Assembly: GCA_003168335.1 (NCBI GenBank)
Contig: PMSM01000003.1
Coordinates: 124,001-188,000 of the forward strand
Direction of reading: 5' to 3'
Origin: Blastocatellia bacterium
GTDB taxonomy: Bacteria > Acidobacteriota > Blastocatellia > Pyrinomonadales > Pyrinomonadaceae
DNA: 64,000 bases
Shown: in pieces, positions 6,305 to 54,286 of the stretch
Position numbering within the stretch: position 1 is the stretch's first letter
Layout: each line of letters starts with the position of its first letter
Position numbers and translations under genes: made by a program
Notes under the pieces: model-generated
What the model was told of the DNA's origin: nothing
Database searches by the model: none
Seen by the model: the letters and a program-made list of their open reading frames with translations, nothing else

Positions 6305-6312
6305 CTGGAAGA

Positions 6313-6434
6313 GGGTTAGACAGGATTAACAAGATTTACAGGATGGGAAGAAGGGAATCTAAAAGAACTTCACACAAAGAGAAGGAGCTCTTGTTTTCCC
6401 AATCTTGTTCATCCTGTAAATCCTGCCTAACTCT
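6313..6434. repeat. Inverted repeat between convergent genes (possible bidirectional terminator)
   Basis: GTTAGACAGGATTAACAAGATTTACAGGATGGGAA ... CCCAATCTTGTTCATCCTGTAAATCCTGCCTAAC. Confidence 0.7.
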
Positions 6435-6437
6435 AAA

Positions 6438-6962: not shown

Positions 6963-7026
6963 AAGACTCCTCCGTGTCGTCACCTCATCGGCATGCTGGT
7001 ACAATTCGGATTCTACTATTGCAGTC

Positions 7027-25329: not shown

Positions 25330-25406
25330 GGGGCAGTAGCTCAGTTTGGCAGAGCGCCGCGTTCGCAATGCGGAGGCCAGGGGTTCGAGCCCCCTCTGCT
25401 CCACCA
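25330..25406 (+). tRNA. tRNA-Ala (anticodon CGC), CCA encoded
   Basis: Cloverleaf folds by eye: acceptor GGGGCAG/CTGCTCC with G3:U70, D arm GCTC/GAGC, anticodon stem CCGCG-TTCGCAA-TGCGG, T arm GGGGTTCGAGCCCC, ACCA end. Confidence 0.95.
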
Positions 25407-25412
25407 ATAATA

Positions 25413-26516
25413 TCAAGCACTTACGGCAGAACGCGCGTCCTGCCGTTTTTCATTTTCAGCGGTTTTGGCGTCAGGTTGACGTGGAGGGTAACACCTTACC
25501 AGTTTTTCCAAGGCGTTGCGCTTCCGTTCCTGCATCGCGTGCGAGTATCTCTTGGTCATCCGAATATCGGTATGACCCAAGATCTCTGCCACGGTCACAA
25601 GCTCTTCGCCCTGATCTGCAAGCCGAGTCGCGCAACTGTGACGAAGGTCCCTTAACTGAAAGTCGGGGATTTTCGCGTCGATGCGAGCGGTGTTGAACGC
25701 TTTCTTCACATCGACCAGACGCCCACCGGTTTTGTCGCTGGTAAAGACGTACTCACTCGAACGTCTCTGTTGATTCAAGACCTCCCTCACCCGCGCATTC
25801 ATTGGTATTACACGGTTGAGCTTAGTCTTGGTCTTTCGCACCTGAATCACTCCTCGATCAAAATCCAGGTCGAACCACTTCAAGTTGAAGACCTCACCTC
25901 GACGCATTCCAGTATGCAAGCCAACGGTCACAATGCTCTTTAATTGCTCGTTGTCTCCCATAGCCGCGAACAGTCGCTGCTCCTCGTCTTCGGTTAGGTA
26001 GCGAACGCGTTCGTTGTCCAGAGCAATCCGCTGCACGTTCTGGCAAGGATTTGTTTCTGCCTTTTCGTTGCGCACCGCCACTGTGAAGATTTTGGATAAC
26101 ACCGAAAGCTCGCGGTTGACTGTCGCCGGGGCTTTGTCAGCTTTGATTCTGCGTTCCTTGAATTGCTCGATCATCGCTGGCTTGATCTCCGCTAGAGTCT
26201 TTCCCTTAAAGAAGTCAGTCAGCATCGTTGTTATGCGTACATCGTCGTCATAGCTGGCCTTGTGAATCTTGGCCCAGGGTAGATATGTTTCCTTGACGAA
26301 TTCTGCAAACAATATCTGTACTGGAGCGGGCGGCTCTGGGTCATACTTCCTGTTCCATTCTTCATCCCAGATTTGCTGAGCGGCTTGTTTAGCCTGTTCG
26401 GCGTTACGAGCCTCCAGCACGCCCCTGTATCGCTTCTTACGTTGAAAGAACTGGTAATAGTAGTGCCGAGCGCATGGATTGCCTTCTTGGCCCGGCTTCC
26501 AAACTCGAATGTTCAT
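25413..26516 (-). CDS. Tyrosine recombinase / site-specific integrase
   Basis: TGMRRGEVFNLKW, LRDLRHSCATRLADQGEELVTVAEILGHTDIRMTKRYSHA (R..HxxR..H..Y); stop lies 7 nt from the tRNA 3' end. Confidence 0.95.
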   Translation of the reverse strand: MNIRVWKPGQEGNPCARHYYYQFFQRKKRYRGVLEARNAEQAKQAAQQIWDEEWNRKYDPEPPAPVQILFAEFVKETYLPWAKIHKASYDDDVRITTMLTDFFKGKTLAEIKPAMIEQFKERRIKADKAPATVNRELSVLSKIFTVAVRNEKAETNPCQNVQRIALDNERVRYLTEDEEQRLFAAMGDNEQLKSIVTVGLHTGMRRGEVFNLKWFDLDFDRGVIQVRKTKTKLNRVIPMNARVREVLNQQRRSSEYVFTSDKTGGRLVDVKKAFNTARIDAKIPDFQLRDLRHSCATRLADQGEELVTVAEILGHTDIRMTKRYSHAMQERKRNALEKLVRCYPPRQPDAKTAENEKRQDARSAVSA

Positions 26517-27203: not shown

Positions 27204-29237
27204 CTATCGGTCATGTGTTTGCTCGTCTAGTTCTAAGGCGCGTTCTGAACTTTCATGCTCGAGGCGTGGATAATTCGCACCAATGTTTTTTGAAGGCATC
27301 GACCGCTCGCGTATCTCATAGATATCTGGGCTGTGTTCGACATTTGGGGTAAGCGACGGATAGACGTCGTGCAATCGGTGAAATGCGTCTACTAAGTGCT
27401 GATTAGAGGGGCTGCTAATTTCCTCGATCGACTCTCTGACCATATTCATTTCTCTCATCAGGGGCACTATGGCACCTTGGCCACTGCGTATTTGCTCTCT
27501 CAAAAAACCACTGACAGCTTCCATGTTAGGTGTGAGTTTACGTTCCAGACACGCATCCATGCAGATTTGATTCACCATCTCCGCTTCACGAAGTCTTGCT
27601 TCATCTTGCGTCGTTGGAAAGTAATGGTTGCTTTCATGATAACCTAATGTTTTTGCGCCCTCCTTTGCCGCGCGTTCTTTCGCGCAATTACTCTCTTCGT
27701 GGAAGTGCCAGTAAGCCACGGCAGCCCTCCACCTTAATTCATCATCATCGATCTCCCATTCGCCCGATTCGTGAAGAGCAGTATCATGTGTCTCATCAGC
27801 AGCTATGGTCAGATGTTCACTTGTGTCAGCGCCCGGGATGTGACTAATCGTATTGATAATCTGTATCGGAGTATCAGCACTAGCCTTTGAGTCGGCATTC
27901 TGAGCTTTTGCGACCGCATCGGGATTAATTTGTGCGATCGCGGGCAGAGGGAGGTCCGGGTTTCCACGGGCGTCGTTTCTAAGTTGCATCTGACCACGAA
28001 GATCGAGCAGCGTAAACTTCCCGACACGAGGAGGCTCTTCGGCTTTCATTTTGGTCTGAGCTTTCAGTGTTTCTGGCGTCTTCTGAACCTGTGATCGTTC
28101 CGCTGGTTTAGTTTCTCGCCGGTCTTGACTGCTTTCGCGGACGTTAGCGAGTTTCCCAGGTGTTTGTTTTGAAGCTGTGCGGTCTTCAGTTTGGTGATGA
28201 GTGACTAACAAAGCCTTGTCGTTCTCCTGTTGAGGGCTCTTTACCTTCGCCGCCTGCTCACCGGGAACAATCGGCGGTTGCTCTGTTGTTATCGTCACAT
28301 ATTTTTCATCCCGAATGGGTGCCGGTGCGGTAGAAAAGGTGATCTGAACGTTAGCGGCGTTGCCATTGATCAACTCTTCCAACCGTTCGGGCGCTATATA
28401 GGCAACGGGCGGTCTCGCCCCGTTTGCCCGCGCTACTGCATCAATATTCGCAACCTGTATCGTCAGCTCTTCATATTCGCGGAGAAGTCCGCCCCGGTTC
28501 AGGTCACCCGTTCTGCCGGTGGACAGCATCAGGGCTACTTCGAACCACCTTCCGACGGTTAGCTGTTCTGGCGTAGGGTCGCGCAGCATCTGAGCATAAC
28601 GAGAAGCGATGGATCTGCTTATATCAATGCCGGGCAACGAATCAAATAAGTGCACGGAGCGAATTGGCTTTAGCATCCGAACCAAGGAGGAAACGAAGAC
28701 CTCTGCGATTTTTCCGGTGAGGAATCGTTTCACGCCGGCTGCGTCTTCCGTGTTGTGCGGCAGGAGCGACTTAGGCAGGTGCTTGATGTACCTCAGTTTT
28801 TCAGTTACGGAGTCCAGGGCCCAGCGGCTGACTGCGACGTGCGCGTGAGGAGTTCGGGTATTCTCGTGAAGACCGGCGATCCACGAAAGACATTTGACTT
28901 TCAGCTCACGCTGCATTTCGCGCATCATGTCGCGGATCGCTTCGCGAAACGTCTTCTGTCGCTCACCCTCATCCTCGCCCGCGCGATCCAGTGATCCAGG
29001 TTCAGGCGAAATCACCACGTGGATGATTTCTTCTTTCTCCAACTGGCGGTTCGTTGGATTCAGGGTAAGATCTGCTTCTTTGAAGGTGAGATCATCTTGC
29101 TGCCCTGAAAAAAGAGGCCGGACGCCGCTTTCGTTCAAGTGTTCGCGATCACGGTCGACTTTTGACGTGGCGATGTAGCGGCTTAAGCTGCTTGTGCCCC
29201 CTTTCGGCGTTGGTTGCACGGCGACATATACTCGCAT
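27204..29237 (-). CDS. Relaxase / mobilization protein
   Basis: EIIHVVISPEPGSLDRAGED..., CLSWIAGLHENTRTPHAHVAVSR (HxH metal motif). Confidence 0.78.
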   Translation of the reverse strand: MRVYVAVQPTPKGGTSSLSRYIATSKVDRDREHLNESGVRPLFSGQQDDLTFKEADLTLNPTNRQLEKEEIIHVVISPEPGSLDRAGEDEGERQKTFREAIRDMMREMQRELKVKCLSWIAGLHENTRTPHAHVAVSRWALDSVTEKLRYIKHLPKSLLPHNTEDAAGVKRFLTGKIAEVFVSSLVRMLKPIRSVHLFDSLPGIDISRSIASRYAQMLRDPTPEQLTVGRWFEVALMLSTGRTGDLNRGGLLREYEELTIQVANIDAVARANGARPPVAYIAPERLEELINGNAANVQITFSTAPAPIRDEKYVTITTEQPPIVPGEQAAKVKSPQQENDKALLVTHHQTEDRTASKQTPGKLANVRESSQDRRETKPAERSQVQKTPETLKAQTKMKAEEPPRVGKFTLLDLRGQMQLRNDARGNPDLPLPAIAQINPDAVAKAQNADSKASADTPIQIINTISHIPGADTSEHLTIAADETHDTALHESGEWEIDDDELRWRAAVAYWHFHEESNCAKERAAKEGAKTLGYHESNHYFPTTQDEARLREAEMVNQICMDACLERKLTPNMEAVSGFLREQIRSGQGAIVPLMREMNMVRESIEEISSPSNQHLVDAFHRLHDVYPSLTPNVEHSPDIYEIRERSMPSKNIGANYPRLEHESSERALELDEQTHDR

Positions 29238-31248: not shown

Positions 31249-34176
31249 TCAGTTATCAACAACGGCGGAGACACCGGATTGAGGATCTCCAGCTAGACTA
31301 TAGGCCCGTAATGAAGGCTCTTCATGACTTCCCTTAACCAGGGCGAACTTTTCCTTGCAGTGCCGGACAAGGGAGTGATTGGCGGTAGTTACAACGAGGC
31401 GAACTGGGTGGGAACGTTGCTCGATTACAATCGTTCGAAGCACGTCCAGCACTGCGATGCGATTGAGGTCATCAAGATTGAGCAGCGGTTCATCCAGGAA
31501 AAACGTTCCGCCTAGTTCGCGCGCGCGTGAAAGAAAAATGGCAAGTGCCAAGTCCTGGCGTTGGCCAAGGCTCATTTGAGCAGTGTCTTCCAATTGATGT
31601 TCGCCTATACACGCAAGCCAGCGGAGAGGTCCCTCATCCTGACTCGAGTCAATTCGGTCGATGAATGTGGCACTCTGCGCCCGAACGTAAAGGGCCGTGA
31701 TGACATCGCAAAGAGGCTGGATTTGCTTCTTAACAAAGGCGTCCTTTGCCGTTCGCAGTGCGTCCGCCCCGACTACGCACTGACTGCGAACTTCCTCGAT
31801 GCGTTCGAGTTCATGAAGCCGGGCTTTCAGTTCGGTCAGTTGGCGCTGGCCGCTCGCCCGATCTCGTTCGTTCGACTCCGCCTCTCTTGCGGCTACCAAT
31901 GCGCCGCGCGCAGACTCTATTTCCTGTTTGGCTTGCGATAAGTTTTCTTCTCCTTCGTCCAAAATTACTTGACGCTGACCCAACAGTTGGTAGTCCCATG
32001 ATTCATCGTCTGCAACTAAACGCCATTGTGTCTCAAATTCCTCTCTTCCTGACTTTGCGATACCAATCTTCTCGGAGATTTCGGTGATTGAAGTCGTGAG
32101 CGTTTGTAGGTTGCCACGCAAACCAGCCAATGCTACACGAGCTTCCTCAGCATTCTTTCTGGAGTGGGCTGCTTCAACTCTTGCCTTCGCAGCCGTCGTT
32201 TCCGCGTTCTTAATTATGAGTTCCAAAACGCGTGTCCAATTGTCCGGTGGCAGATGCTCAAGATCGGCAATCGGCGCGCTATCGGAAAGGGCACGGACGT
32301 TCTCAGAAAGCGATAAGATTTCGCGTGCGACGGATTGCAACTCTAACGCGATCTCAAAGCGGCGTGCGCGTTCCTCCGCCAGACGCTCTGCTTCTGTAAC
32401 TTGGCCTTCAGTCTTTGACCGAAGCCCCGCGATACGACCAGCCAAGGAGTCATCCCGCAACTCCTTTGGGTCAATGCCAAGCGTCTCAAGAGTTGGTTTG
32501 GCTTCAGTCAATAGGCGGCGTGCTTCTTCGCGCTCGGCTGTTAAGGATTCCAGAGTTTCGGCAGCTTCATTCCAAATCTTTGCCCGTTGCTCAAAGCTCA
32601 AGATATCAACTTCCAAGAGCTGCTTTTGCACAGCGAGAGCATCGAGGGATTCGGGGATCTTGGAGATGCCTGACTCGATCGCTTTGCGCAGATTACTAGG
32701 GTTGCCGTGATCGTGAGCGCACAAAGGACAGCGCTGTTCATCCTTTGTTCCGTCGAGAAAATCACGACCTCCAATCCTGAGTTGCTCAAGTGGTCCGGCC
32801 AACTGATTGATTTGAGTTTCAATCGTCGCCAATGTAGATCTCGTTCCCGAGAGGGATTGTTCTACCCGATCGCGGTCTTCCGAGGTCGGAAGCTTGATAT
32901 TACGGATTCTTTCACCAGTGGTTTCTTCGCGGACTTTCGCCTCTCGCCATAACTTCAAAGAGTCTTCACACTTTAGTACTGTTTCCAGCAGTCCAGTGGC
33001 TCGCGATTGATTCGCCCGTGCGGCGGTGACCGCAGCTTGAAGCTCGGTCAGATCTATTTGTGTCTGCGCGTCACCCGTTAGCTCCCGCCACTGGGCCAAA
33101 GTCAGTTCCAAGGCCGCTCTAACCGAGTCGACAGGCTGCGATATGAGCGATCGTTCCAGTGCTTCAGCTTGCGAAGCGTCATTTTCCAGACGCTGCACCA
33201 GGCTTGTGGCGATCTCCAACTCTTTCTGCACTTCCGCGCGACGGAGACTTGACCTTTCTTGCTGTTTGCCGAGTAGTGTTATTTCCTCTCCTAGTGCTGA
33301 GTAACTAGTCGCTTTGGTTCTGACATAGATCAGTGCTGAGCGTTGCTGGCCCAACTTCCTATCAACCAGCTTGTAAGCATTCTCGGCAGCGGCCAGATGG
33401 GACTCAGGCGGCCCGGCCTTTGCTAATGCCTGGACTCCCAATCTGCGACTGACTGCGCTGATCTGTTGTTGATACGTTTCCAAGCTTGGTGCGCTTGCGT
33501 ACAAAGCTTCCGCTGTAATCTCCGATTCGCGAGAACCGATTTCACGCTTGACTCGTAGAACGTCTTCTTTCAGTCGAGCCTTTCCACCTATAGCGCCCAC
33601 TATTCTCATCAGGTCTCTTTCTTGTCGCTGCAACTCCCCGACGCCGAGTAGATCGCAGAAGACGAGATCACGGACTTCATTGCTCGAATCATCAGTATCG
33701 AGGAGCAGATCCAGCGCATGCGCTTCCAAAAGCCGTACGGCCCGGAACCAACTGCGCCTATTATTAAGTCGTTGCAAGCCCTTTGAGCTTTGCGGAAGGT
33801 TTTCCGGAGTGATGTTCGCGAGTAACTTGTTTAGCAACACCTTTTTCAATGTGCCGCCCTCAAAAACTTTTATCTGGTTAGCCTGCGTCTCGCTGTCTCG
33901 CCGGATGCGACTAGGCCCGCCACCGTTTCTGATTTCGGCTTCCACGGATGGCTGTGTCGATGTGAATATGTTGCTTACACCTTTGCCCTTGCTTTTGCCG
34001 AGCGGCTCCTTTAGTCGTTCAACTTCCCCAGTGAATAACCACTCGAGTGCGTCACACAAGCTTGTCTTGCCGACGCCATTTGGCGCATGAATTAGAGTGA
34101 GTCGCGCGCGGAGATCAAGCGGCAGTTCATTTGTGATTCCTCGGAAGGCATGAACCCTTAGAGAATCAAGAAGCAT
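31249..34176 (-). CDS. Rad50/SMC-like ABC ATPase with putative zinc hook (LmuB-like component)
   Basis: Walker A HAPNGVGKTSLCDALEWLF; CPLC hook (EQRCPLCAHDHGN) between coiled coils; signature MSLGQRQDLALAIFLSRA; Walker B GTFFLDEPLLNLDDLN; H-loop LVVTTANHSLV. Start MLLDSLRVHAFRGI at 34176. Confidence 0.9.
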   Translation of the reverse strand: MLLDSLRVHAFRGITNELPLDLRARLTLIHAPNGVGKTSLCDALEWLFTGEVERLKEPLGKSKGKGVSNIFTSTQPSVEAEIRNGGGPSRIRRDSETQANQIKVFEGGTLKKVLLNKLLANITPENLPQSSKGLQRLNNRRSWFRAVRLLEAHALDLLLDTDDSSNEVRDLVFCDLLGVGELQRQERDLMRIVGAIGGKARLKEDVLRVKREIGSRESEITAEALYASAPSLETYQQQISAVSRRLGVQALAKAGPPESHLAAAENAYKLVDRKLGQQRSALIYVRTKATSYSALGEEITLLGKQQERSSLRRAEVQKELEIATSLVQRLENDASQAEALERSLISQPVDSVRAALELTLAQWRELTGDAQTQIDLTELQAAVTAARANQSRATGLLETVLKCEDSLKLWREAKVREETTGERIRNIKLPTSEDRDRVEQSLSGTRSTLATIETQINQLAGPLEQLRIGGRDFLDGTKDEQRCPLCAHDHGNPSNLRKAIESGISKIPESLDALAVQKQLLEVDILSFEQRAKIWNEAAETLESLTAEREEARRLLTEAKPTLETLGIDPKELRDDSLAGRIAGLRSKTEGQVTEAERLAEERARRFEIALELQSVAREILSLSENVRALSDSAPIADLEHLPPDNWTRVLELIIKNAETTAAKARVEAAHSRKNAEEARVALAGLRGNLQTLTTSITEISEKIGIAKSGREEFETQWRLVADDESWDYQLLGQRQVILDEGEENLSQAKQEIESARGALVAAREAESNERDRASGQRQLTELKARLHELERIEEVRSQCVVGADALRTAKDAFVKKQIQPLCDVITALYVRAQSATFIDRIDSSQDEGPLRWLACIGEHQLEDTAQMSLGQRQDLALAIFLSRARELGGTFFLDEPLLNLDDLNRIAVLDVLRTIVIEQRSHPVRLVVTTANHSLVRHCKEKFALVKGSHEEPSLRAYSLAGDPQSGVSAVVDN

Positions 34177-34774
34177 CTGAAGCCTCCTCGTCCGTTGCTG
34201 TGCGAGCTTCCTCGCGAAGTGTTTCCGCCGTAGTTTCGTAGTTCTCAAGCTGCCCGTAAAGCTCCAGGGCGCGGCTTGCAATATCCGGAAGTTTGGGTGG
34301 CGACGCCAAGGTTACCGCCGAAGGTTGGACGGGTGGCAACCCAAGAACAGTCACTTTCCAAAGTGCGTCTCTCCAATCATTGTCGGGTGAGAGCCAAATC
34401 ACATGTTTACGGCACACAGCGGTATCAAGCTCAAGGGTTTGAACGGTGCCGCGCATCGTTTCGTCCGGCTTCAATGGCAGTGCAAACAGCAAGTAACCAT
34501 CCAGGAATTTTCCACTCTGTTCATACTTGGTGAGTCGCCGCCACATCCACTCCTGAGCACTCTCTTTGATAGCGGTCAATTTTTCGAGCTCGATCGAAGA
34601 GAGTGGGATCAGCGCCAACACGGCAAACGAGCTTTCCCAAGTCAAAGTGCGTTCGGGCGCTGAGGTCTCATCCACTGCCGCTGCAGCACCGGCGAACTCA
34701 AAACCGACGGGAATAGCTAACTCTTCGAGTTGCTGCTTAAGCAGTTCCAGAAGTTCGTTTTTCATCCGTTTCAA
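34166..34774 (-). CDS. Small middle component of SMC/ABC three-component system (LmuC/ABC-3C MC-like)
   Basis: 202 aa; overlaps the upstream stop by 4 nt and the downstream SMC start by 11 nt; SGKFLDGYLLFALP..., CRKHVIWLSPDNDWRDALWK. Confidence 0.55.
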   Translation of the reverse strand: MKRMKNELLELLKQQLEELAIPVGFEFAGAAAAVDETSAPERTLTWESSFAVLALIPLSSIELEKLTAIKESAQEWMWRRLTKYEQSGKFLDGYLLFALPLKPDETMRGTVQTLELDTAVCRKHVIWLSPDNDWRDALWKVTVLGLPPVQPSAVTLASPPKLPDIASRALELYGQLENYETTAETLREEARTATDEEASDAS

Positions 34775-36522
34775 TTCGCCGCAAGTTGATTCACAATCGT
34801 GGTCCTTTTCTGGGCTAGAGTTGTATCAGGATCACTCAAAGAGTTTTCAATTTCGCCTAGCGGACGCCAGAAAATATGACGACACCTGACGCTCGTGAAA
34901 TCGCCGACTACAGGAATCTCCGTATAGTCCACCGATTTATCCGGTTGGATTGCTCCAGCCGGGCTATGCCCTGCACGTCCATTGCCTATTACAAGGAGTT
35001 GAGGTTCGTGCGGATATTTGACAGATAACTCCCTCAGGATTTGCCACATTTTTCTCCAGTCATGAAGTGGCGACTTCCAGATGAGAGCCTCGCGATCCTC
35101 CAATTGCAACTGACCATGAAAGGAGTCTGCCACTAGCGGTGTTGCTCCCGACACTTGTTCGACTGCGGAGAAAACAGCTAGGGCTTGGTCGAGGTGAATC
35201 GTTTGCGTATCCATCGCATCTGGACTAAAGCTGGCAGCCTTCTCCTCGACTCCCGAGAGCAATCGTGGCCAAAGCCTGGGGCCTAGATGAGCCTCGTCGG
35301 GATCCGACTTGATAGAATCGAGTCCGCTCTCAATAAGGGGCTTCGCCGAGTTATGATAGTTGCTTGAAATCACATCTCGGCGGCGCATGACGTACCTCCT
35401 CAGTTCTTGAGAGGGGACACTCTCTATGAGTCGATGTAGCCCTCCAGCTTCGAGAACTCGATGTTGTGGTACCCAAATTCGCCCAAGTTCTGCCGCGTTC
35501 ACCCAACAAAAATGTCCAAACGCAACTCCGACCAAGGACTGTCGTAGCAGCAAACCCGACCCTTCATTTGTGCTTACATAGCGAACAGATGGAAATGGGT
35601 GGGGCGGTGCACTTGCCATTATGTGTTTGTGGACGAACCCACCGCTGAGACACCGCCATTGGTCTTGCTCCGGATCCAAAAACATGGGTGCTGCTAGTTG
35701 ATTCACAAAGATCAAACCGGCACGGCGAGAATTCAGGCTTACGATGTTATTGATGACGCCGGACCAGTGACCGCTCTGGGGCTTATCAGTGTACAACGGT
35801 GCTGCAACCAGAACGTTGGGGCCATTCTGAGGTCGTGGTGCAAGCGTGCGTGTGATGCGCACCCTGGCACTATTCGGCTGCTCCGAAATTAAATCCGAGC
35901 AGATAATCGGAAACAACAATAGATCTTGAGTCTCGATCTGTAGAATATAATCGCCGGTAGCTAATCCGTCGATAGTGATTTCAAATTGTTGTTCAAAAAA
36001 GTTCTTGAGAATCACATAACAACTTGAGTCGCCTATGCCGTTGTGAATCCAGCACCATCCTGAGTTGTATCGATTTTGGGGATCGATCTCATCCGCACCG
36101 CCGGGCCACGTTGCTGTGCATTGCCCCAGCAGTTGTCGAAGACGGAGTCCGTCTACCGCACCGAACCCCGCAATAACGATCAGAGGATGCGGATAACCAT
36201 CGATCAAACTGTTCAGAGTGTCGAAGTCACCCGATGAAAAAGCATACTCTGGAAAAATTACTAGGCCACTCTGACCAGCGAACCAACGCGATAGTCGAGT
36301 TTGTCCCTCCTCATCCGCAAAAATTGCCACGGCTAACGCTAAAGAATCAGGGCGTGATGCATCATTGGGAATTCCTGCTGGATTTACCAAAGCAGGCTGT
36401 GCAAGGCAAACTGGTAGCTCACCGTTGGCGTTAAGCCAACCGGCATCATTTGATATTGTGCAGACACCTTCGGCGAAAGTGGGGTCGGCGTTGGGCATGC
36501 GACAAAACGCTCCTAAGGACAT
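34771..36522 (-). CDS. Nitrilase/carbon-nitrogen hydrolase-fold putative effector with C-terminal domain
   Basis: Nitrilase catalytic set readable: Glu in GLVIFPEYAF, Lys...Glu spaced by 8 in ILKNFFEQQFE, Cys in LLLFPIICSDLISEQP. Confidence 0.75.
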   Translation of the reverse strand: MSLGAFCRMPNADPTFAEGVCTISNDAGWLNANGELPVCLAQPALVNPAGIPNDASRPDSLALAVAIFADEEGQTRLSRWFAGQSGLVIFPEYAFSSGDFDTLNSLIDGYPHPLIVIAGFGAVDGLRLRQLLGQCTATWPGGADEIDPQNRYNSGWCWIHNGIGDSSCYVILKNFFEQQFEITIDGLATGDYILQIETQDLLLFPIICSDLISEQPNSARVRITRTLAPRPQNGPNVLVAAPLYTDKPQSGHWSGVINNIVSLNSRRAGLIFVNQLAAPMFLDPEQDQWRCLSGGFVHKHIMASAPPHPFPSVRYVSTNEGSGLLLRQSLVGVAFGHFCWVNAAELGRIWVPQHRVLEAGGLHRLIESVPSQELRRYVMRRRDVISSNYHNSAKPLIESGLDSIKSDPDEAHLGPRLWPRLLSGVEEKAASFSPDAMDTQTIHLDQALAVFSAVEQVSGATPLVADSFHGQLQLEDREALIWKSPLHDWRKMWQILRELSVKYPHEPQLLVIGNGRAGHSPAGAIQPDKSVDYTEIPVVGDFTSVRCRHIFWRPLGEIENSLSDPDTTLAQKRTTIVNQLAAN

Positions 36523-36682: not shown

Positions 36683-39600
36683 TTAGGAGATTTGCTCGCT
36701 TGATACGGCAACTTTCAGCATGCCATTGACCTCTTCGATCTTCTCCCCTCGAACCAGCTTGGCAATTTGTGATTCAATCACAGCCTTCAATTGAGCACTA
36801 GTAGCTTGAAACCCTAGAAGTCGCGCAATTGCCGAAGGAATCTCACTTCGCGTGGCTCCGTGGCTCGCGTCTAGAATTGCCAATATCGCAGCGCGAATTT
36901 CAGTTGGTGGTAAGTGATCCGGTTTTCTTAGGGTTGGAGACATAACGTTCGCGCGGTTCCGGACTCGCACTGGGGATGTGAGCATCGTTAGGCAATCCTC
37001 TTCTCTAACACACGATCTGCTTGCCAAAAGAGATTCAATTGCGCGGGCAACCACGTCATGAATGCGTGAGCCAGCGCGACCCTTGGACCAGAGCATACGA
37101 ACTCGGGTGACGATTTCCTCTTCGTGGATTGGGCCTTCGTGCTCCAAGATGCGGAGCACGATCGCTGCCATGTCTTTGGTGTAGAGTTCGTGCGGATCTA
37201 GTTTACTCGGAACCTCAAAACGCGCTTCGCTGTAAGGTTCAGACAAACTGCTGATGCCTCGATTGTCGATTTCAAAGATAGTCTCGCGCTCGATACCGTT
37301 TTGCGACTCGCTAGTAACCTCAAAGTGGGAGGACGGCAACTCCTCAAGCGTATTCTCATCGATAGCGGTCTCGGCGCGCGCAAGAGCTTCAGCGACCTTG
37401 CCAAGCTGTTCAGACGGCCGTTGGAACCAATCAGTGCTCCAGATCCGATGGATAACCCATCCGTGATCTTCAAGGACCGCTTGGCGCAAACGATCGCGGT
37501 CACGCGCAGAACGTGAATGGTGGTATGCCGCGCCGTCGCATTCGATCCCGAGCACATATCGACCAGGCTGTTTCGGATGAAGTACGCCCAAGTCGACAAA
37601 AAACCCTGCAATGCCAACTTGTCGATGAACCTGATAGCCCAAAGATTCAACTGCCTGGGCTACGACTTCTTCAAAGAGAGACTGCTCCTCTCCACCTGAC
37701 GGCTGCGAGATTGGAAGTCGTCCGGTTTGAGCGAACGAAAGGAACGCCTTGAATGCGGCTGCTCCGCGACTGCGTGCTCTTTGAAGATCAATATCATCCG
37801 CTGTAATCGACGAAAAGATTTCACAACGCAACTTGGCTCGGCTGATCAAGACGTTGAGTCGGCGCTCTCCCCCTTCGACGCTGAGCGGACCAAAGCTCAT
37901 CGCCATATATCCGTTAACGTCCCGACCATACCCTACGGAAATGAAGATCACGTCCCGCTCGTCACCCTGAACGTTTTCAAGATTCTTGATGAAGAAAGGT
38001 TCCACAGAATGCGCCGAAAAGAATGACTCAACGTCAGGGTTTTCCCGTCGGAGCAATTCCAACTCATCCTCGATTGCTTGCCTCTGCTGAATCGAAAACG
38101 TTGCTACACCCAGACTCTTTTGATGATCCTCGCGAGCGTGCTTTAGGATGGCGCGGCAAACAGCTTTAGCTTCAACTCTATTCGTTCGCGATGCGCCGCG
38201 ATCGTAAACGCCTTCCGGAACGTGATTGAACTTGAGGCCAAGGCTTCCGGAAGCCGAGTAGGGACTTGGAACAATGTAAAGCTCGTCGTTATAGAACTCG
38301 TGGTTGGAAACTGCGATGAGTGAGTGGTGCCGGCTGCGATAGTGCCAGCGAAGCATTGACGACGACAATCCCCGCGCGGAGCACAACCCCAAAATGCTTT
38401 CGATGTCCTGAGCTTGCGCAGCCTGGGGCTCCTCGCCTTCGTCATAGTCATCAGATTCCTCGACGTTTGAGGTGAGCCTACTGAAGAACCGGGTTGGTGG
38501 TAGCTGTCTATCGTCCCCCACGACAACGATCTGCTTGCAACGAGCGACGGCTCCGAGAGCGTCCACTGGGAGGACTTGGCTGGCTTCATCAATGACCAGC
38601 AAGTCAAACTCCACCGCTCCAGGTTCCAAAAACTGCGCCACGGAGAGAGGGCTCATCATAAACACTGGCTTGATCGCTTGGACTACTGAGCCGGCGTCCT
38701 TGAGCAAACGTCGGACCGTACGATGCCCGCGCTTACGTTCCATCTCTGCTTTCACGAGTCCCGTTGCCCCGACACCTGAATCATGCGGCGGCAGTCGCTC
38801 ATAGTGCGCAACCAGTGTTCGATACTTCGCGAGCTCCAGCCGTTCCTTATCCAAGTGCCGGAATTCAGCCACATGATTGCTGTGCAACATTCCATCAAAC
38901 TGTGCGAATTCTGGCTTTTGACGAGCAACCTCGCGAAGCAACTGGCCATAGTAAACACGATCAAAACAGTCAGATACCGCCTTGGGTTCGATAGCGCCGG
39001 ATTCCAATCTGTCGACAAGCTGACCAAGTTTGAGCTCTCGCGCCATTCTTGTGCGCACGAAGTAGTTGTTCCAGCGCGACAACCCTTCCATGTCTGAGAG
39101 CCAGATTGAGCATCGCTCGGTAAGCGTCTTGAGGGGAACAGTATTGAAAATCGGAGCATCGAATGCGATGCGGCAGTCAAGACTTAGTTCCTGAAACAGT
39201 TCCGTCAATTCCGTCTTAGCTCGATCTGCTATGGCTGAAAGCTGGTTAACCAGCGTGGCTACCTGTTTCTGATCTTGCACCGTAGAGAACGTCTGTCTGA
39301 AGTTCGAATCAAGGCCCACTTCCTGCTGGTGCGTTACCCAATTCAGAACTGCCTCTAGCTGATCCCAGCTTGATTTCTCATTGCGCCACAAGCTTCCAAA
39401 CGCAGACCGCCCCAGGGATTCTCCACTCCGAATTTGTCGTAATGCGCTTTGACCGGCAATGATCGCGTCACAGATTGAAAGACGATCCGAATAGTTCTTT
39501 GGTAATTCGATTTTGAGCGCTTCCCGCAAGGTCCGAATTGCTCGGCGATAGTCTGAATAAAGAAACCGCAGGAACGATCGTCCGCGGGTGACAATGTGAC

Positions 39601-41461
39601 CGCGTGCTGCTGAAGAGTCTCCATTCCATATTGATTCGTTGACTTGCTGTCCGACCTCTCCGAAGGCGCCAGTGAATTTTCGTCCTTCATCGAGAAGATC
39701 ACGTAGGCTGTCTAGACCAGCACTCCACACGCCATTGCACAAAGCTTGTTTGTCAACAGTCGGAGCCTTCGCCACATATTCGGCAACAACACGCTGGCGA
39801 TCGACTTCATCGAAGCTATTTGGAGACGGTTGGGCTAGAACTGACGCCAACTTGTTAGACGTTTCGAGCAACGCGGAGAGAGTCTCCGCTAAAGAGCGAA
39901 TTCTTGACTCCAGCGGATCAAGATCAATTTTCAAAACCGTTTCTCGACACACACCTCGCCAGTTGTGCTGGGAGGGCAAGCCGATTTCTTCGACGCGTGT
40001 TGCCAATTCCTCGGCTAGTTTCCGACGCCCTTTCAAATCCTCACGCGTCCAAGTCTCGGCTTCAGGGAATACAAGATCCGCAGCTTCGCGGCCGCGATCG
40101 TTCAGAGAAGCAAGCTGTCCCATCATCACGAAAGGGGTAACCGAACTTGGAAGATGCGGCTCGTGTAGGGATACAACATGTCTGTTTAGAACTGCTCGCT
40201 GCTCTTCAAGTTTGGGCACCAGCGATTCGAGACTAAGCGTTACAGGCCGACCGAGTTTCCAGGTGCGACCAATCTCTTCAATCACTGCGCGCTTGTTTGC
40301 CTTGTTGCTGTGTAATTCCAGGCACACGGCGCCTATGCCTTCGTTTTCCAATCGGCGCTTCACGACTTGCAGCGCGGCCAACTTTTCTGCGACGAACAAT
40401 ACCTTCTTGCCGTCAAGCACTGCACTCGCAATGATGTTAGATATCGACTGACTCTTTCCAGTGCCAGGTGGTCCTTGAATGACAGCGCTTTCGCCTGCGC
40501 GCACTCTTTCAATTGCTATAGTTTGGGAACCATCAGCGTCTACAACGTGGTCCAGTTTTGAAGCAGGTATTATCTCGTCTAGATTTGCGTCATTAGGGAT
40601 GATGTGTTCCGCTCGTTGGAATCCATCCGAAAGCAGACTCGTGATCATGGAGTGACCGAGAAGTCCGTTTGCATCGGGCCAATTCTGCGAATCAAGATCG
40701 CGGTACATAAGAAGCTTAGCGAACGAGAAGAACCCAAGGGTCATCGCGTTCGGTAGTACTTCCCAGTCCTTGGCACCCTCGATCGCCTGCCTTACCGCGT
40801 CGAAGTAGTCCGTTGGATTGAATTCCTCATGTTCTGGGAAAGGAGGAAGGCCCATAGCGAAATCGTTCTTCAATCGTGCTTCAAGAGAAAGATTTGGTTC
40901 GATCTCTTCTTCGCGCCACCGGAGCCGAAAGCGCTCGGACGCAGTCTTGCGCTGAAGGTCGACTGGAATCAGAATGAGCGGAGCGAATCGGGGCGTGTCT
41001 GAATGTCCTGCCTCGAACCACTTGAGATGCCCAAAGGCAAGATACAAAACGTTGACGCCCTGCTCCTCAATCATTGTACGAGCATTGGTAAAGAGATCGA
41101 GGAGTCGTCGTTGGAGTCCTTCGGGAGACAATGCTGTCTGAAGGCGCAGGTCGACGTAACGTCTCGCGACGCCAGTACCTGGGTCCTCTTCTTCGTCGGG
41201 TTGCGGTAGTCCGATCTCCTCGTCGTCGAACAATTGCGAGTCTGTGCTATCGGCCGGTTTGGTCTGTTTGCCCGGAAGGAAGGTCAAAGCCTTCTTCTCG
41301 TTCACCAACAGTCGGAAGACTTCTGCGCTAAGCTCATCGTAGACCTGAATGATACGCGCAGACTTTGAATTCACAGGAATTGACAGGAGGCGATTCCTGG
41401 TTGAGAGATCGAGAAGCTCCTTGCGGCTTCGATCAAGAAGGTCTTGTATGCTCAGCGGCAT
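36683..41461 (-). CDS. DUF4011 - SF1 helicase - Vsr/MTES_1575-like endonuclease - DUF3320 protein (defence-associated)
   Basis: SRKELLDLSTRNRLLSIP (DUF4011), VIQGPPGTGKSQSISNIIA (Walker A), LLVIDEASQV, VVVGDDRQLPPTRFF, LRWHYRSRHHSLIAVSNHEFY, LNVLISRAK; C-terminal GRYVLGIECDGAAYHHSRSARDRDRLRQAVLEDHGWVIHRIWSTDWF nuclease motif. Confidence 0.92.
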   Translation of the reverse strand: MPLSIQDLLDRSRKELLDLSTRNRLLSIPVNSKSARIIQVYDELSAEVFRLLVNEKKALTFLPGKQTKPADSTDSQLFDDEEIGLPQPDEEEDPGTGVARRYVDLRLQTALSPEGLQRRLLDLFTNARTMIEEQGVNVLYLAFGHLKWFEAGHSDTPRFAPLILIPVDLQRKTASERFRLRWREEEIEPNLSLEARLKNDFAMGLPPFPEHEEFNPTDYFDAVRQAIEGAKDWEVLPNAMTLGFFSFAKLLMYRDLDSQNWPDANGLLGHSMITSLLSDGFQRAEHIIPNDANLDEIIPASKLDHVVDADGSQTIAIERVRAGESAVIQGPPGTGKSQSISNIIASAVLDGKKVLFVAEKLAALQVVKRRLENEGIGAVCLELHSNKANKRAVIEEIGRTWKLGRPVTLSLESLVPKLEEQRAVLNRHVVSLHEPHLPSSVTPFVMMGQLASLNDRGREAADLVFPEAETWTREDLKGRRKLAEELATRVEEIGLPSQHNWRGVCRETVLKIDLDPLESRIRSLAETLSALLETSNKLASVLAQPSPNSFDEVDRQRVVAEYVAKAPTVDKQALCNGVWSAGLDSLRDLLDEGRKFTGAFGEVGQQVNESIWNGDSSAARGHIVTRGRSFLRFLYSDYRRAIRTLREALKIELPKNYSDRLSICDAIIAGQSALRQIRSGESLGRSAFGSLWRNEKSSWDQLEAVLNWVTHQQEVGLDSNFRQTFSTVQDQKQVATLVNQLSAIADRAKTELTELFQELSLDCRIAFDAPIFNTVPLKTLTERCSIWLSDMEGLSRWNNYFVRTRMARELKLGQLVDRLESGAIEPKAVSDCFDRVYYGQLLREVARQKPEFAQFDGMLHSNHVAEFRHLDKERLELAKYRTLVAHYERLPPHDSGVGATGLVKAEMERKRGHRTVRRLLKDAGSVVQAIKPVFMMSPLSVAQFLEPGAVEFDLLVIDEASQVLPVDALGAVARCKQIVVVGDDRQLPPTRFFSRLTSNVEESDDYDEGEEPQAAQAQDIESILGLCSARGLSSSMLRWHYRSRHHSLIAVSNHEFYNDELYIVPSPYSASGSLGLKFNHVPEGVYDRGASRTNRVEAKAVCRAILKHAREDHQKSLGVATFSIQQRQAIEDELELLRRENPDVESFFSAHSVEPFFIKNLENVQGDERDVIFISVGYGRDVNGYMAMSFGPLSVEGGERRLNVLISRAKLRCEIFSSITADDIDLQRARSRGAAAFKAFLSFAQTGRLPISQPSGGEEQSLFEEVVAQAVESLGYQVHRQVGIAGFFVDLGVLHPKQPGRYVLGIECDGAAYHHSRSARDRDRLRQAVLEDHGWVIHRIWSTDWFQRPSEQLGKVAEALARAETAIDENTLEELPSSHFEVTSESQNGIERETIFEIDNRGISSLSEPYSEARFEVPSKLDPHELYTKDMAAIVLRILEHEGPIHEEEIVTRVRMLWSKGRAGSRIHDVVARAIESLLASRSCVREEDCLTMLTSPVRVRNRANVMSPTLRKPDHLPPTEIRAAILAILDASHGATRSEIPSAIARLLGFQATSAQLKAVIESQIAKLVRGEKIEEVNGMLKVAVSSEQIS

Positions 41462-43288: not shown

Positions 43289-44108
43289 TCAGTTCGCGTA
43301 TTCCTCTGCTTGCTCCTTGCTGGGTCGGCCTGCTCGCAGAATTTGGTCGGCGGCGCGGAAAATCTTCTGTGCACTCTTTTCGGGAATTGCCTCGGCGCTG
43401 CTACCGCTTCCCTCGGGCAACCAATTCTGTATGTAGCCACGCGCATAGTCCGCTCCTTCCAAGCCCAGCTTCACAACACAGCAACGCGACTGCTTCCGCT
43501 TCCACTTCGCGAAGGTTTCTTGGCGTCTGTTCTGTGTCGGTGAAACTGCCTTCGGACGTGTGTAGAAGCACGTGGGCCATTTCATGAAAGAGTGTCTTAT
43601 GCGGGAGTTGGGCCACAGGATTGATCGCGACCTGGCGGTCACGTGCGAAGCCCTGCACATTTCCGTCCGTCTTGTCGAACGGGATGCGCTCAATGCTTAC
43701 CGCCGCCAGCGCTTGTTCGGCGTCCCACTCTGGGATCGTCACTGGTCCAAGCTCGTCGCCTATCGTTTGACTAACGACGAACCATCGGGCTCTGTGAACA
43801 AAGCTCGTGAATGTGTGCTCGTCGTCTGAATCCTCATCCCGTCGCTTGCGGGTGATCGGCATGCAAAGCGTTAAGGCCCGTTCGCCGCGTTTGACGACTC
43901 GGCCTAACGTCTGCCACTTCGGAAACGTATTGATTGGCCCTGGCTGTATCCCGCGCAATTGGTATTGCACAAGCGCGAGGATTTGATTTCCTACGGAGTA
44001 ATTCCAGAAAGCACTGTACGCATCCATGATCAGGCCGGGCTTGTTGACGGCTTCCACGAGTAACGCTGACCATTTCGGAATGTCGGTTGTTTGCGTTTGC
44101 TTCTCCAT
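43289..44108 (-). pseudogene. ArdC-like antirestriction protein (ssDNA-binding + zincin), frameshifted near 43466
   Basis: Frame A 43401-44108: KPGLIMDAYSAFWNYSVGNQILALVQYQLRGI...TLFHEMAHVLLHT...EVEAEAVALLCCEA; frame B 43289 on: LGLEGADYARGYIQNWL...IPEKSAQKIFRAADQILRAGRP. Confidence 0.82.
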
Positions 44109-44603
44109 TTTCTTTTGCTCCTTTTCGGTCTTTTGTTTTGGTCTTAAAGAGAGTGTTTCCCCCTCGTAGTGACCGTTGGCTCCGATTGGGCGCTTGACCG
44201 CACACAGCACTGCCGAAACGGAGTGGAGGACTTGGAGCGAAGCGGAAAGTTGTGCGGGCGGGCTATCGAGGACAATGAGAACGCAGAGGGGGAAACTAAA
44301 TCAGACAGTCATCTCGGCTGGAATGGAATGAAATCGAATGGACGCCGATGCCTTATTGACTTAAGGGCGTGAGCGCGTCCGAACCATTACGGTAGCGAGG
44401 CTTTCATTCTTTAATTAAACCGATGGCAAGAAATTTATGTTGCGTAAGTGGCAGCAGATGCTGTCGCTTCGCTTGAAGAGGGAGTTCTCGGGCTGTCAGT
44501 TAGAAGGATCGGGTAGGGCTCTGACCCGACCAGCCTTTGCATGTGGCGTGATAGCGCTTTCTCGAATGGCGCGACGCATGTCCTGCCCAAGACGTTCGTC
44601 CGA

Positions 44604-48514: not shown

Positions 48515-51500
48515 ATGAATTCCTCAATCCATCTGGTTCTTCGCCGTGCTCTGATCCTGTCGGCATCGGCAGTCATATTGATCGCTCTCGGAACTATCGC
48601 CTTTGGCCAGCAAACCGCGGCGCGGCCCGATCGTGGTGTCAACCCGGGCGGTTCCTATTCAGTATCAGACATTGAGAACATTAACCTCCAGAACGGCAAC
48701 GTCCAGCTCTCAATTCCGCTGGCTTCGCTGCCGGCGATTGCCGGAGGCCGGCTCTCTTTCGGTCTGAGCGCCAACTACAACAGCAAGCTCTGGAACATTA
48801 CCCGCAGCGAACAAGTGGGCAGCGGCCTCCCTTATCAGACTTACGTTGTCGACACGCCACAGTTGAGCGATGTCGGCGGCTGGTCGTTTGGCGGCGCTTA
48901 CGCCATTTTTACTCGTGACGCTACAGAGGACTTCGCCTACGTTATTCCTCCGTCGCCCGATCCTTATGATGGCTATGCCGTGGCCGATTATCAGTTGTTG
49001 ACCCAATACAATTGGAAGAGGATGGTCCTGCGTACGCCGGACGGGGCCGAGCACGAGTTGCGGCCCAACGGCGGTAATTATTACGCATACAACTTTTCCG
49101 GTCATCCGCACCCTTACCTATGGGGCTACTACCGGGACACGCCCGATACGACGGGCACGCCCATGCGGTACAACTCCAGCGACGGTTCCTACCTCTCAGC
49201 GATCGTCAACCCTTACGGCCACGCCAGCGGCATCCAGTGGACGATCTTTCTGCCTGACGGCACTCAGATCATTAGCTACAGCAACGGCATCCAGCGCATC
49301 CGCGATAACAACGGCAATTCGATCAAGATCTTCAGTGACGCTAACGGCATGCACTATCAGGACGAGCAGACGGGCCGCGAGATCCGTTCCACTTACGACC
49401 CTCAGGGCGCGGGCGGCTACGGACAGACCCAGGTCTGGTACCCGACGGTGGGCGGCGGCTCGCAGCACATTGACATCAACTACGGCGAGACTATCGTCCA
49501 GGGCAAGATCTACGATGTGGAGGATTTTAACTATAATGTCACTAACGAATACGGCCAGCAGGGGATTCCGTGCAAACGGGTCCAGCAGTTACTGCCGCAG
49601 ACGGTGAGCGTGGTGCGCGAGATCGTCTTCCCGGCGACCGAGCCCAACACTCAGGGTAGACGCTTCACCTTCAGCTACAACTCTGACACGACGGAGACGG
49701 CGACCACGCAAGCTGTGCAGTGGAGTTGCGGTGCCCAATTCCAGAGCTACACGCGGACCGCCTCACATGGATTGGGCGCGCTCAGTCAGATGGTGACTCC
49801 CTCCGGGGCGGAAGTTGACTACACTTATACTCAGGGCGGCGTGCATGACTTTATCGGCAGCAACGGCTTACTCAACGCGGACTACATGGCGCGAGAGACG
49901 CTCACGGCCAAGGATCTGCACCACGACGGACTAATCGACACTTGGCATTACAATATCCCAAACGAAGCGAACTCCGGCGCTTCGTCGGTCACCAACCCCG
50001 ACGGCTCCACTGTCAGCCAGAGCTATTTTCCCATCGACCCGAACTTCGCACAGGTTGTCGGCACCGGCGTTGGGGCGCGGAACGGACTTGTCTTCTCCAG
50101 CAGCAACGGCGTTATCCAGACACTGCGGCACTGGGTCGCCGGCAGCCAGATGGCGACCGGGTCAACCGGCGTCACTACTGTCAATCCTCTGGTTGACGCT
50201 GAGTACACGGCGCTGGTCGGGACCACGCTGATGTCGGCCAAAACCTATCAGCACGACTACAACGGAAACGTGACGCAGGTGGCGGAGTATGACTGGTTTG
50301 ATTCGTCACAGGTGACGCTCGACTCAGCGGGAGTGCCAACGGCGCCGCCAGCCGGCGCAACGCCGCTGCGGGTGACAAACACGAGTTACTACAACCCGGC
50401 CCCGAACGCGAATTCGGCGAACGCTTACACTCTGCGAACGCTGGCGGCCGGGACGCCCTCGATCCTTAACGCCGTGCAACAGACGACGGCGGGACCGGGC
50501 ATCACACAACTCAGCTATGATGGGCAGTCATACGGAGTCGCGCCGACGGTCGGCAATCTTACGAGCCAGTCTACTTGGGATGATCTGGACAATAAGTGGA
50601 TTACCAGCGGCCAGACATATGGATTGTATGGAAACCTGGCTGCCATAACCGACGCGCGGGGAAAAGTCACGCAGTTTTACTATGACGATGCGACTCACGC
50701 TTTGCCGAACCGCGTGGTGGTCGATCCGCAAAACACCACGGGAACGCAGACCACCACCACCGCGTTCGATTACGACACGGGCCTGGTCACCAGCACCAGG
50801 GACGCCAATAATCAAACGTCGACAATCGATTACACGAATCAACTGCTCAGTTCAGTCGATCCGTTTGGGCGTCCGGGCGTGGTGATTAGTCCACTAGTAA
50901 ATGCGGGCAGCCCGAATCAACATCACCTCACCAAAACCTACTACGCGGACAGCTCGCGAACTGTGACCGTCGCCGCGGATTTGAACTCAGAGGGCGATGG
51001 ATTGCTAAAGAGCCAGGTGCTTTCCGACATGCTGGGCCGGACTATTGAGAGCCGCCAGTACGAGACTGCGAACACCTTCATCGCGGTCAGACAAACTTAC
51101 GATGCCGTGCATCGAACCCATCAGACCTCGAATCCGTTTCGTGCGGGTGAGACGGTGCTTTGGACTACGGCTGTTGCTGATGAACTAGGCCGCATTATCG
51201 CTGTCACGACGCCGGACAGCGCCCTAGTGTCCACTGCGTATTCTGCCAATACGGTCACGGTCACAGACCAGACCGGCAAGCAGCGCAAGAGTGTCAGCGA
51301 CGCGTTGGGAAGGTTGATCCAGGTTTATGAAGACCCGAACGGCTTGAACTATCTGACGAGCTACAACTATGACGTGTTCGGCAATCTACTTCATGTCTAT
51401 CAGGGCTCGCAGACCCGCACGTTCGCCTATGATTCGCTGTCGCGCTTGCGCACGGCTGCAAATCCCGAGAGCGGGACGCTTACCTACACCTACGACGACA

Positions 51501-54286
51501 ACGGCAACCTCTCGACAAAGACTGACGCGCGCAATGTCGTCTCTAACTATGTCTACGACGCTTTGAATCGCGTGACGACGATTCTCTACCGCGTTAACGG
51601 TCAACCCGATCCGAATACAGCTGACGTGGAGTATCTCTACGACAACGCAACCAATGGCAAGGGGCGGCTTTGGCTTACATTTAAGTGGGGTGCAAAGCCG
51701 CTTCAGAAGGCTGTGGGCGGCTACGACGCACTTGGGCGCGTGACTCAACTCTATGATCTCTTCGGTAACGACCAGGGCGGCTGGTACCCGGCCTACTCCA
51801 GCAATCGGACGTATGACCTGGCCGGCAATGTGAAGACACAGACCTATCCGTCCGGTCACGCTGTCACTTACGACTACGACGGAGCTGGCAGAACCACTAG
51901 CTTTACCGGCAACCTCGGCGACGGCACTACCCGTACCTATTCGACAGGCATCAACTATTCGCCTTTCGGGGGGATGAGCAACGAGCAATTTGGCACCACC
52001 ACTCCGCTTTACCATAAGACATTCTATAATATTCGCGGACAGATGTTCGACACGCGGCTCAGCAGTGTGAATGATACGTGGGATTGGAATCGCGGCCGGT
52101 TGATCCTTTACTATTCAAGCAACCACGCGTGGGGAGGAAGCGGCACGGATAACAATGGCAACCTCCTGTTTGCCGAGAATTGGATTCCTCCGGCCAATGC
52201 CACCCTGGATCAGGCTGAGTCTCTAACAGAAGATAGCTACACTTACGACACGTTGAATCGCCTCAGCGCTGTTAACGAATCGAGCCTGAACATCGCTGGC
52301 GGCGGAAGTTGGACCTCACAGTTCGCGCAGGGCTATAGCTACGACCGCTATGGCAATCGCACGATTAATACGGGCGCGACGTGGGGCGGAGTGAACAACA
52401 AGGCTTTCTCTGTTGACTCGGCCAACAACCGCTTGGGTGTGCCGAGCGGGCAATCAGGCACGATGAGCTACGACGCGGCCGGCAACCTCACCACCGATAC
52501 GTATACTGGGGAAGGCACGCGCACTTACGATGCAGAGAACCGGATGACGCAGGCGTGGGCCAACGGTCAGTGGCAGACTTACAGCTATGACGGCGACGGT
52601 CGGCGGGTGAAGCGCAACGTCAACGGCACGGAGACGTGGCAAGTCTATGGTCTCGGCGGTGAGTTGCTGGCTGAGTATGCACAGAACGGCGCGGCCGCGA
52701 GTCCGCAGAAAGAGTATGGCTATCGGAATGGTCAGTTGCTGATCACTACCGACGCCGCTACTGGCGGCGGAGGTGGTGGCGCACAACCCGTGACCTGGAC
52801 TAACGCGGTGGGCGTCACAGTGACTGGGAACAGTCTGACAGCGACGGGAAATGGCTGGAATACCGCGGGTGCAGTCTCAACCCAGAGCATCGCATCGGGC
52901 GACGGCTACGTGGAAACCACGGTTAGTGAGACGAGTACTTATCGGATGATTGGGCTGAGCCACGGCGACACCAATCAGGACTATTCAGATATTGACTTCG
53001 CGTTATATCCGGCGGCGGGTGGTGCGCTTTACGTCTACGAGGATGGAGTGTCTCGGGGATACTTTAGCAATTACGCCACCGGCGACACCTTGCGGGTGGC
53101 GGTGGAAGGCGGGGTGGTCAAGTATCGCAAGAACGGGACCTTACTCTATACCAGCACGGTCGCGCCCACTTATCCATTGTTGGTTGATACTTCGCTGTAT
53201 TCATATGGCAGCACGCTGAATAATGTGCTGATTTCCGGTGCTGGGGGCGGCAGCAGCTCCTCAGCACAGATTCACTGGCTGGTGCCGGATCAACTCGGCA
53301 CGCCGCGAATGGTGTTCGATCAGACGGGAAGCTTGGCCAATGTGAGTCGGCATGATTATCTCCCGTTCGGTGAGGAACTCTTCGCCGGCACTGGTGGCAG
53401 AACCACCGCACAAGGTTACAGCGCGAGTGATGGAGTGAGGCAACAGTTCACTGGACAGCAAAGAGACAACGAAACCAGTCTCGATTACTTCAATGCTCGG
53501 TACTACGCATCGATACAGGGACGTTTCACCTCTGCGGATTCATTTGGGGGAAGAATATCCAATCCTCAGTCGCTTAACCTATATGCTTATGTTCTCAATA
53601 ATCCTCTCAAATGGAACGATCCTACAGGCCACCAAAAAGAAACAGAAGACGAGCGGAGGAAAAAGGAAGCACAGAAGTATGGTTATGATTACGTTAATGG
53701 CGTGCTAGTTCAAAAGAGTGGCGGTGGCATTGTATTTGAAACCGTCACCGTGAGAGCGAATTCTAACGGTCCGCTTGCCCGTTCTGGCTGGGACTGGGTT
53801 CCTGTTGTTGGCCCATTTAGGCAAATGGGTTGGGACCTAAAGACTGGCCATGACGCGCGAGCTCTTGGTCATTTCGGTTTAGCGGCGGTTGAAGGAGCTA
53901 CTCTCCTTAGTCCTGTCCGAAGCGGCGGCAAGTTCGTATTTCGTTTTGCGCAACGGATGTTTGTCACGGAGGTGATTGAAGAAAGTGGCGTTGTAGTTGC
54001 TGAGACTGTAGTCGAAGAGGCCGCGACGGAAGGAGTATCAATTGTTGAAAGCAATGCTGGACATATTTTCCGTGAAGCTGCTGGCCACGTGGCAGATACC
54101 CCCGCAAACAGAAAGTTGCTGCTTGATACGGCATCTGATGTGAAAAACCTTGTTGGAGCGGACAAGTTTGGAAATCAATGGTATGCCAGGACTCTGGAGA
54201 ATGGGAAACAGGTCTGGACTTCGGTTCGTAACGGGGTAATTAGGAATGGTGGAGTCAACAACGTTCCGAGGATATTTAAGTTCTAA
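48515..54286 (+). CDS. RHS/YD-repeat polymorphic toxin with C-terminal nuclease-like tip
   Basis: Many YDALGR/YDxxGN repeats, RHS core [49 protein letters not shown]; variable tip [61 protein letters not shown]. Confidence 0.95.

Follow-up and report, generated by a model that had tools for sequence, protein, structure and literature searches.

The three-gene operon

The window analysed here is a 64,000-nt stretch of the Blastocatellia bacterium assembly GCA_003168335.1 (contig PMSM01000003.1, forward-strand positions 124,001-188,000). Its minus strand carries an operon of three translationally coupled open reading frames (ORFs; 36522-34771, 34774-34166, and 34176-31249 in window coordinates), for which sequence comparison supports the assignment as a candidate defence system of the ABC-three component (ABC-3C), or Lamassu-superfamily, type. 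The ORF list agrees with a first-pass annotation of this DNA, which had described three same-strand genes with overlaps of 4 nt (effector/middle gene) and 11 nt (middle gene/ATPase) and a 202-aa second product. The genes are as follows.

34771..36522, minus strand: LmuA-like effector, 583 aa as annotated, probably 575 aa (ORF, CTD3, structural model, PDB folds, and catalytic tetrad)
34166..34774, minus strand: middle component, LmuC/MComp1-like, 202 aa (weak MComp1 match, family matches, and presence at 23 of 25 loci)
31249..34176, minus strand: Rad50/SMC-like ATPase, LmuB-like, with a CPLC zinc hook, 975 aa (SMC_N/AAA_23, PADLOC LmuB, and sequence motifs)

The true start of the effector is probably ATG 36498 instead of 36522, because this codon, eight codons downstream of the annotated start, is preceded by AGGAG (36514-36510) and many homologues begin near the equivalent Met-Pro in the alignment. 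For the ATPase, a longer ORF beginning at TTG 34281 was judged an unlikely start. A promoter and terminator scan revealed no excess.

The effector: a predicted nitrilase-fold hydrolase fused to CTD3

The effector comprises a predicted nitrilase-superfamily domain at approximately residues 14-365 (its end was put at about residue 340-365) and a C-terminal extension. Such an extra C-terminal part had already been recognised in the first-pass annotation, and its size is here revised from ~250 aa to ~220-240 aa. The extension contains the Pfam domain CTD3 (C-terminal domain 3 of ABC-three component systems; residues 417-537, 54.4 bits against a cut-off of 28), which was also found in 17 of 18 effector homologues, with a best E value of 4e-63.

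The Glu/Lys/Glu/Cys pattern noted earlier, with a Lys-to-Glu spacing of 8, corresponds to E92 (in PEYAF), K173 (in LKN), E181, and C208 (in ICSD). Since all four residues are invariant in 18/18 aligned homologues sharing only 24-33% identity with the window effector, these motifs are not chance occurrences. The spacing between the second Glu and the Cys is 27, as it is in NitFhit. An unguided profile alignment to 34 CN_hydrolase proteins placed E92, K173, and C208 on the canonical Glu, Lys, and Cys, with a weak score. The effectors are also under purifying selection, as the ratio of nonsynonymous to synonymous substitution rates (dN/dS) was 0.13-0.14 in three pairs.

An AlphaFold2 model built from 18 homologues reached a predicted local distance difference test score (pLDDT) of 82.4 and a predicted template modelling score (pTM) of 0.82. 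When it was compared with the PDB by Foldseek, 43/43 matches at E<0.001 belonged to the nitrilase superfamily, in line with the fold originally proposed, and the next match had an E value of 0.23. Three residues of the tetrad each come after a strand of the model (E92 after 86-89, K173 after 166-172, and C208 after 201-205), the placement that a nitrilase site would show. The matched structures include the glutaminase domain of NAD+ synthetase, N-carbamoylputrescine amidohydrolase, formamidase (AmiF), and an amidase. The nitrilase-superfamily amidases share the fold and the Glu-Lys-Cys residues with the window effector, which differs from them in being 9-15% identical to PDB nitrilases in structure alignments, fused to CTD3, and encoded in a three-gene operon. 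A sequence search of the PDB returned no relative of either the effector or the middle protein. By sequence and model, the effector is thus assigned a nitrilase fold with an intact Glu-Lys-Glu-Cys tetrad and predicted catalysis, which upholds the carbon-nitrogen hydrolase class given to it at the outset.

The middle component and the ATPase

MComp1 was matched in 9 of the 19 middle proteins of the operon family (best E 5e-8), and the middle protein of one Pseudomonas relative (L086) passes the Pfam cut-off. In a Foldseek search, the middle-component model resembled restriction-endonuclease-like folds (R.BspD6I small subunit and XisH; E ~0.01-0.05); as these matches are non-significant, a nuclease role for this component was dropped.

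The third product matches Pfam SMC_N/AAA_23, and among PADLOC models LmuB fits it best (104.8 bits). Every element of the Rad50-like ATPase described in the first-pass annotation was located, namely Walker A (APNGVGKTS), the CPLC zinc hook, the signature (SLGQRQ), and Walker B (FFLDEP). None of 17 homologues departs from the window ATPase at the Walker A residues, C483-P484-C486, S869-G871-Q872, or D895-E896. ATP hydrolysis is likely retained in ATPases of this type, because E896, the Glu of Walker B, does not vary within the operon family. The Lamassu/ABC-3C assignment proposed earlier is supported by the CTD3 match above cut-off, MComp1 in the relatives, and the LmuB match.

Distribution of the operon

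With the ATPase alignment as query, IMG/VR and a genome set with a single representative of each species yielded 25 outside loci (L008-L032), of which L025, L027, and L029 duplicate others. The expected co-occurrence of the three genes was borne out, as all three, with their order kept, are present at 23 of these 25 ATPase-bearing loci, and the first junction is usually a 4-nt overlap. The two loci without the full set are a 226-aa ATPase fragment (L030) and a contig edge (L032). Damage was seen at L016, where the effector is broken, and at L023, where the effector is truncated and the ATPase broken. The hosts are mostly Pseudomonadota (Alpha-, Beta-, and Gammaproteobacteria), and copies occur in mobile settings, such as plasmid p2A1 (L025) and a contig classed as viral (L008). 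Among 297 genomes of its own phylum, the window effector was found in one, namely its own genome.

In both the effector tree and the ATPase tree, the window proteins form a group with those of L009 and L011 (supports 100/100 and 100/98), with long branches meeting at this grouping in the ATPase tree, as the tree tool warned. Because the two trees agree on this grouping, the genes of the operon have probably moved together. A tblastn search of the window effector against plasmids and phages gave no relatives, the same protein used as a single query found none among viral contigs, and the family profile recovered from viral contigs only a locus already known, on the same contig as L008.

Several candidates were rejected. 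A CTD3 match in G243 was attributed to chance, the protein being MauE/thioredoxin-like, and those of the plasmid ATPase matches H3-H15 that were examined were either truncated copies by transposase genes or unrelated ATPases that no operon accompanies. On plasmids of Paracoccus and Klebsiella, remnants of the family ATPase also lie beside transposase genes (L004:5582-7915 and L005:6248-7471), the operon having been lost.

Active and dead nitrilase domains

Besides the 18 aligned effectors, the tetrad is intact in L023, L080, and L084, the latter two being loci in the genomes that yielded L019 and L010. Among 299 genomes of the genus Pseudomonas, a search for CTD3 gave six proteins, four of which have an additional N-terminal domain (L086-L089). 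Mrr_cat was matched at the N-terminus of these four and of an Edwardsiella effector (E 3e-5 to 3e-3); part of the latter gene stands as N in the record.

L031, locus positions 5245-7485: Mrr-fused effector of Edwardsiella (Mrr_cat, dead nitrilase domain, and CTD3)

In the Mrr-fused proteins, the nitrilase-like domain has Ser or Ala at E92, Glu at K173, and Gly or Thr at C208, and E181 falls in a gap. The tetrad is therefore lost in 5/5 Mrr-fused relatives, whereas it is intact in every full-length free nitrilase effector. L086, L087, and L088 each keep an intact middle protein and ATPase, and L089 ends at a contig end. The contrast between the two groups is an argument for nitrilase catalysis as the activity of those effectors that keep the tetrad. 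In the ATPase tree with midpoint rooting, the Mrr class is nested among nitrilase-bearing operons (supports 85/79 and 94/96); the active nitrilase is thus the likelier ancestral state by midpoint rooting, which does not establish the root. The contrast between active and dead nitrilases was not found in the literature searched, which did not cover Krishnan 2020.

A further domain combination occurs in a related operon (L014), in which a Trypsin_2 N-terminal domain is fused to an intact nitrilase domain (5042-7441). A domain scan of this protein gave no CTD3 match, and L014 lies on long branches in the trees. By ORF reading only, with no profile used, no obvious MBL-type nuclease gene was seen just upstream.

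Comparison with known systems

Lamassu, ABC-3C, and DdmABC systems share with the window operon an effector with an ABC-3C C-terminal domain, a middle component, and a Rad50-like ATPase with a hook. The window effector differs in combining CTD3 with a divergent nitrilase domain unmatched by PADLOC LmuA models, and the window ATPase has 975 aa versus ~650 aa in Lamassu. In Lamassu, the ATPases are presumed sensors, the C-terminal domains are presumed docking parts, and the effectors vary (PMC10586767), being activated by oligomerisation (PMC12799240).

The first-pass annotation had left open whether an existing subtype covers this system. The effector class is not new, as 'C-N hydrolase' is already listed among LmuA effectors in a 2023 review citing Krishnan 2020 and Millman 2022 (PMC10586767). 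At the level of models, none of the LmuA models in PADLOC 2.0.0 matched the window effector or its plain nitrilase relatives; such recognition tests the database and does not define the superfamily. New elements are the host lineage (1/297 phylum genomes), the contrast between active and dead nitrilases, and a connection to DRT1 that can be tested.

DRT1 (UG1 reverse transcriptase-nitrilase) is likewise a defence nitrilase effector with no known substrate, whose activity is tied to oligomerisation: it works as a tetramer, a lid in filaments holds it inactive, and its substrate was left open in the 2026 structure paper (PMC13275509). The window operon differs in having no reverse transcriptase and, as putative sensor, a Rad50-like ATPase. 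The sequence link is marginal, consisting of a PADLOC RTasNitrilase match (E 0.003) in one operon relative, and no DRT-type nitrilase was found in the window genome or the 13 genomes reached through the loci.

With Trypsin-LmuA and Mrr-LmuA Lamassu (PMC12799240; PADLOC PDLC03855 and PDLC03852), the family shares CTD3-type operons with Mrr (L031, L086-L089) and the related trypsin operon (L014). The difference lies in the nitrilase domain, since the Mrr versions keep a dead one and the trypsin version keeps an intact one.

Proposed mechanism and alternatives

It appears probable, at roughly three chances in four, that the operon belongs to the ABC-3C (Lamassu-superfamily) systems, acts against phages or plasmids, and has as its effector a carbon-nitrogen hydrolase that assembly switches on. 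The gene set and order, conservation, fold, intact tetrad, and active/dead split tied to nuclease fusion were established here. By analogy, the zinc-hook Rad50-like ATPase and the middle component would sense foreign DNA (ends or replication structures), with the effector docked to their complex through CTD3 and held inactive. Nitrilase-family enzymes need to form a dimer or tetramer. Sensing may release or rearrange the effector, such that its nitrilase domains meet as a dimer or tetramer, and the Glu-Lys-Cys site would then attack a small molecule that the infected cell cannot do without, hydrolysing an amide, nitrile, or N-acyl/N-carbamoyl bond in it and bringing the cell to a halt (an abortive outcome). 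The sensing of DNA, docking through CTD3, oligomerisation as the gate, and the abortive outcome are carried over from relatives.

The Mrr class would, in such a scheme, keep its dead nitrilase fold as an assembly module. More tentatively, an ancestral gated C-N hydrolase effector could have been swapped for Mrr in one branch, the dead fold being kept as an assembly scaffold or switch. If so, nitrilase assembly would, together with DRT1, be a general on-switch in bacterial immunity, and the active branch would have an undiscovered metabolite target.

Several points weigh against the proposed system. We know of no defence assay for any of the operon loci. With hhalign, the probability for the effector against housekeeping nitrilases was <3%, both in a first run with 4 host nitrilases, a set too thin to inform, and in a second run with 34. 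Pfam CN_hydrolase gave no match in the window effector and none in 18 members at E<=0.1; such a match is a detection test and not a defining feature of the nitrilase superfamily, and its lack reflects a sequence too divergent. Template modelling scores (TM-scores) of the effector to nitrilases are moderate (target-normalised ~0.45-0.5), and MComp1 is only weakly matched in the window middle protein (E 0.0056, under the Pfam cut-off). Finally, Vibrio LmuB has a Walker B Glu-to-Gln change (PMC10586767), whereas the window family keeps the Glu, so regulation may differ.

Among the alternatives, a system of the same kind acting mainly against plasmids or in element maintenance, rather than against phages, is rather unlikely, though not negligibly so. 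The operon lies in an island with a relaxase and an integrase (see below), and the Vibrio Lamassu DdmABC eliminates plasmids (PMC10586767); sequence cannot tell the two activities apart, and the neighbouring ProA/PDC-S37 gene is annotated as anti-phage. It is unlikely that the nitrilase domain is a scaffold only, used for oligomerisation or ligand sensing, with another activity, such as that of the middle component or ATPase, doing the work. The Mrr-fused class, in which the fold is kept though catalytically dead, does point to a non-catalytic role as well, and the middle-component model weakly resembles restriction endonucleases; however, those fold matches are non-significant, and the catalytic residues are invariant in the 18 homologues without a fused nuclease and lost jointly only where one is fused. 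A non-immune role is very improbable, whether in DNA repair, in chromosome maintenance, or as an amidase of metabolism aided by an accessory ATPase. Rad50/SMC-like ATPases do act in repair and most nitrilases are metabolic, but the spread is patchy (the single phylum genome, and CTD3 in 6 of 299 Pseudomonas genomes), the settings are mobile (island, plasmid, and viral contig), the effector domains are interchangeable (Mrr and trypsin), and CTD3, MComp1, and LmuB are matched.

Few weapons of bacterial immunity are as poorly understood as nitrilase-type effectors. For the assembly-gated hydrolase proposed here, the operon family would represent a second, unrelated sensor (a Rad50-like ATPase) driving a nitrilase, besides that of DRT1. 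As complete operons occur in cultured hosts (Thauera, Achromobacter, and Pseudomonas), along with natural dead versions bearing a nuclease, the questions of the immune-nitrilase target and of assembly as the switch become directly testable.

The mobile island and neighbouring genes

The operon is carried by a mobile island, of which the following features were identified.

25330..25406, plus strand: tRNA-Ala(CGC), integration site of the island (tRNA call; homology of relatives ends just beyond)
25413..26516, minus strand: tyrosine integrase of the island (Phage_integrase, 107.6 bits)
27204..29237, minus strand: MobA/VirD2-like relaxase of the island (Pfam Relaxase, 25.6 bits, cut-off 24.6)
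36683..41461, minus strand: DUF4011-SF1 helicase-MTES_1575-DUF3320 helicase-nuclease (PDC-S37/ProA), a neighbour outside the three-gene system
43401-44210: protein with ArdC N-terminal and M78 peptidase domains, an antirestriction-like island gene

The tRNA-Ala(CGC) gene is an integration hotspot in the window genus, because homology stops just past it in five relatives, one of which (G413, L079) has a related integrase there. A partial second copy of the tRNA-Ala end was seen in L075. For the window island, a right end at 45588 was rejected, as its 12-nt match to the tRNA end is not convincingly above chance.

The helicase-nuclease, which sits 160 bp upstream of the effector, matches PADLOC PDC-S37 (1858 bits) and NCBIfam ProA (anti-phage; 1510 bits, cut-off 1500), and no homologue of it was found at the other operon loci. 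Elsewhere in the window, positions 48515-54286 encode an RHS/YD-repeat-like protein of 1923 aa, with an RHS-like fragment after it (54793-55323).
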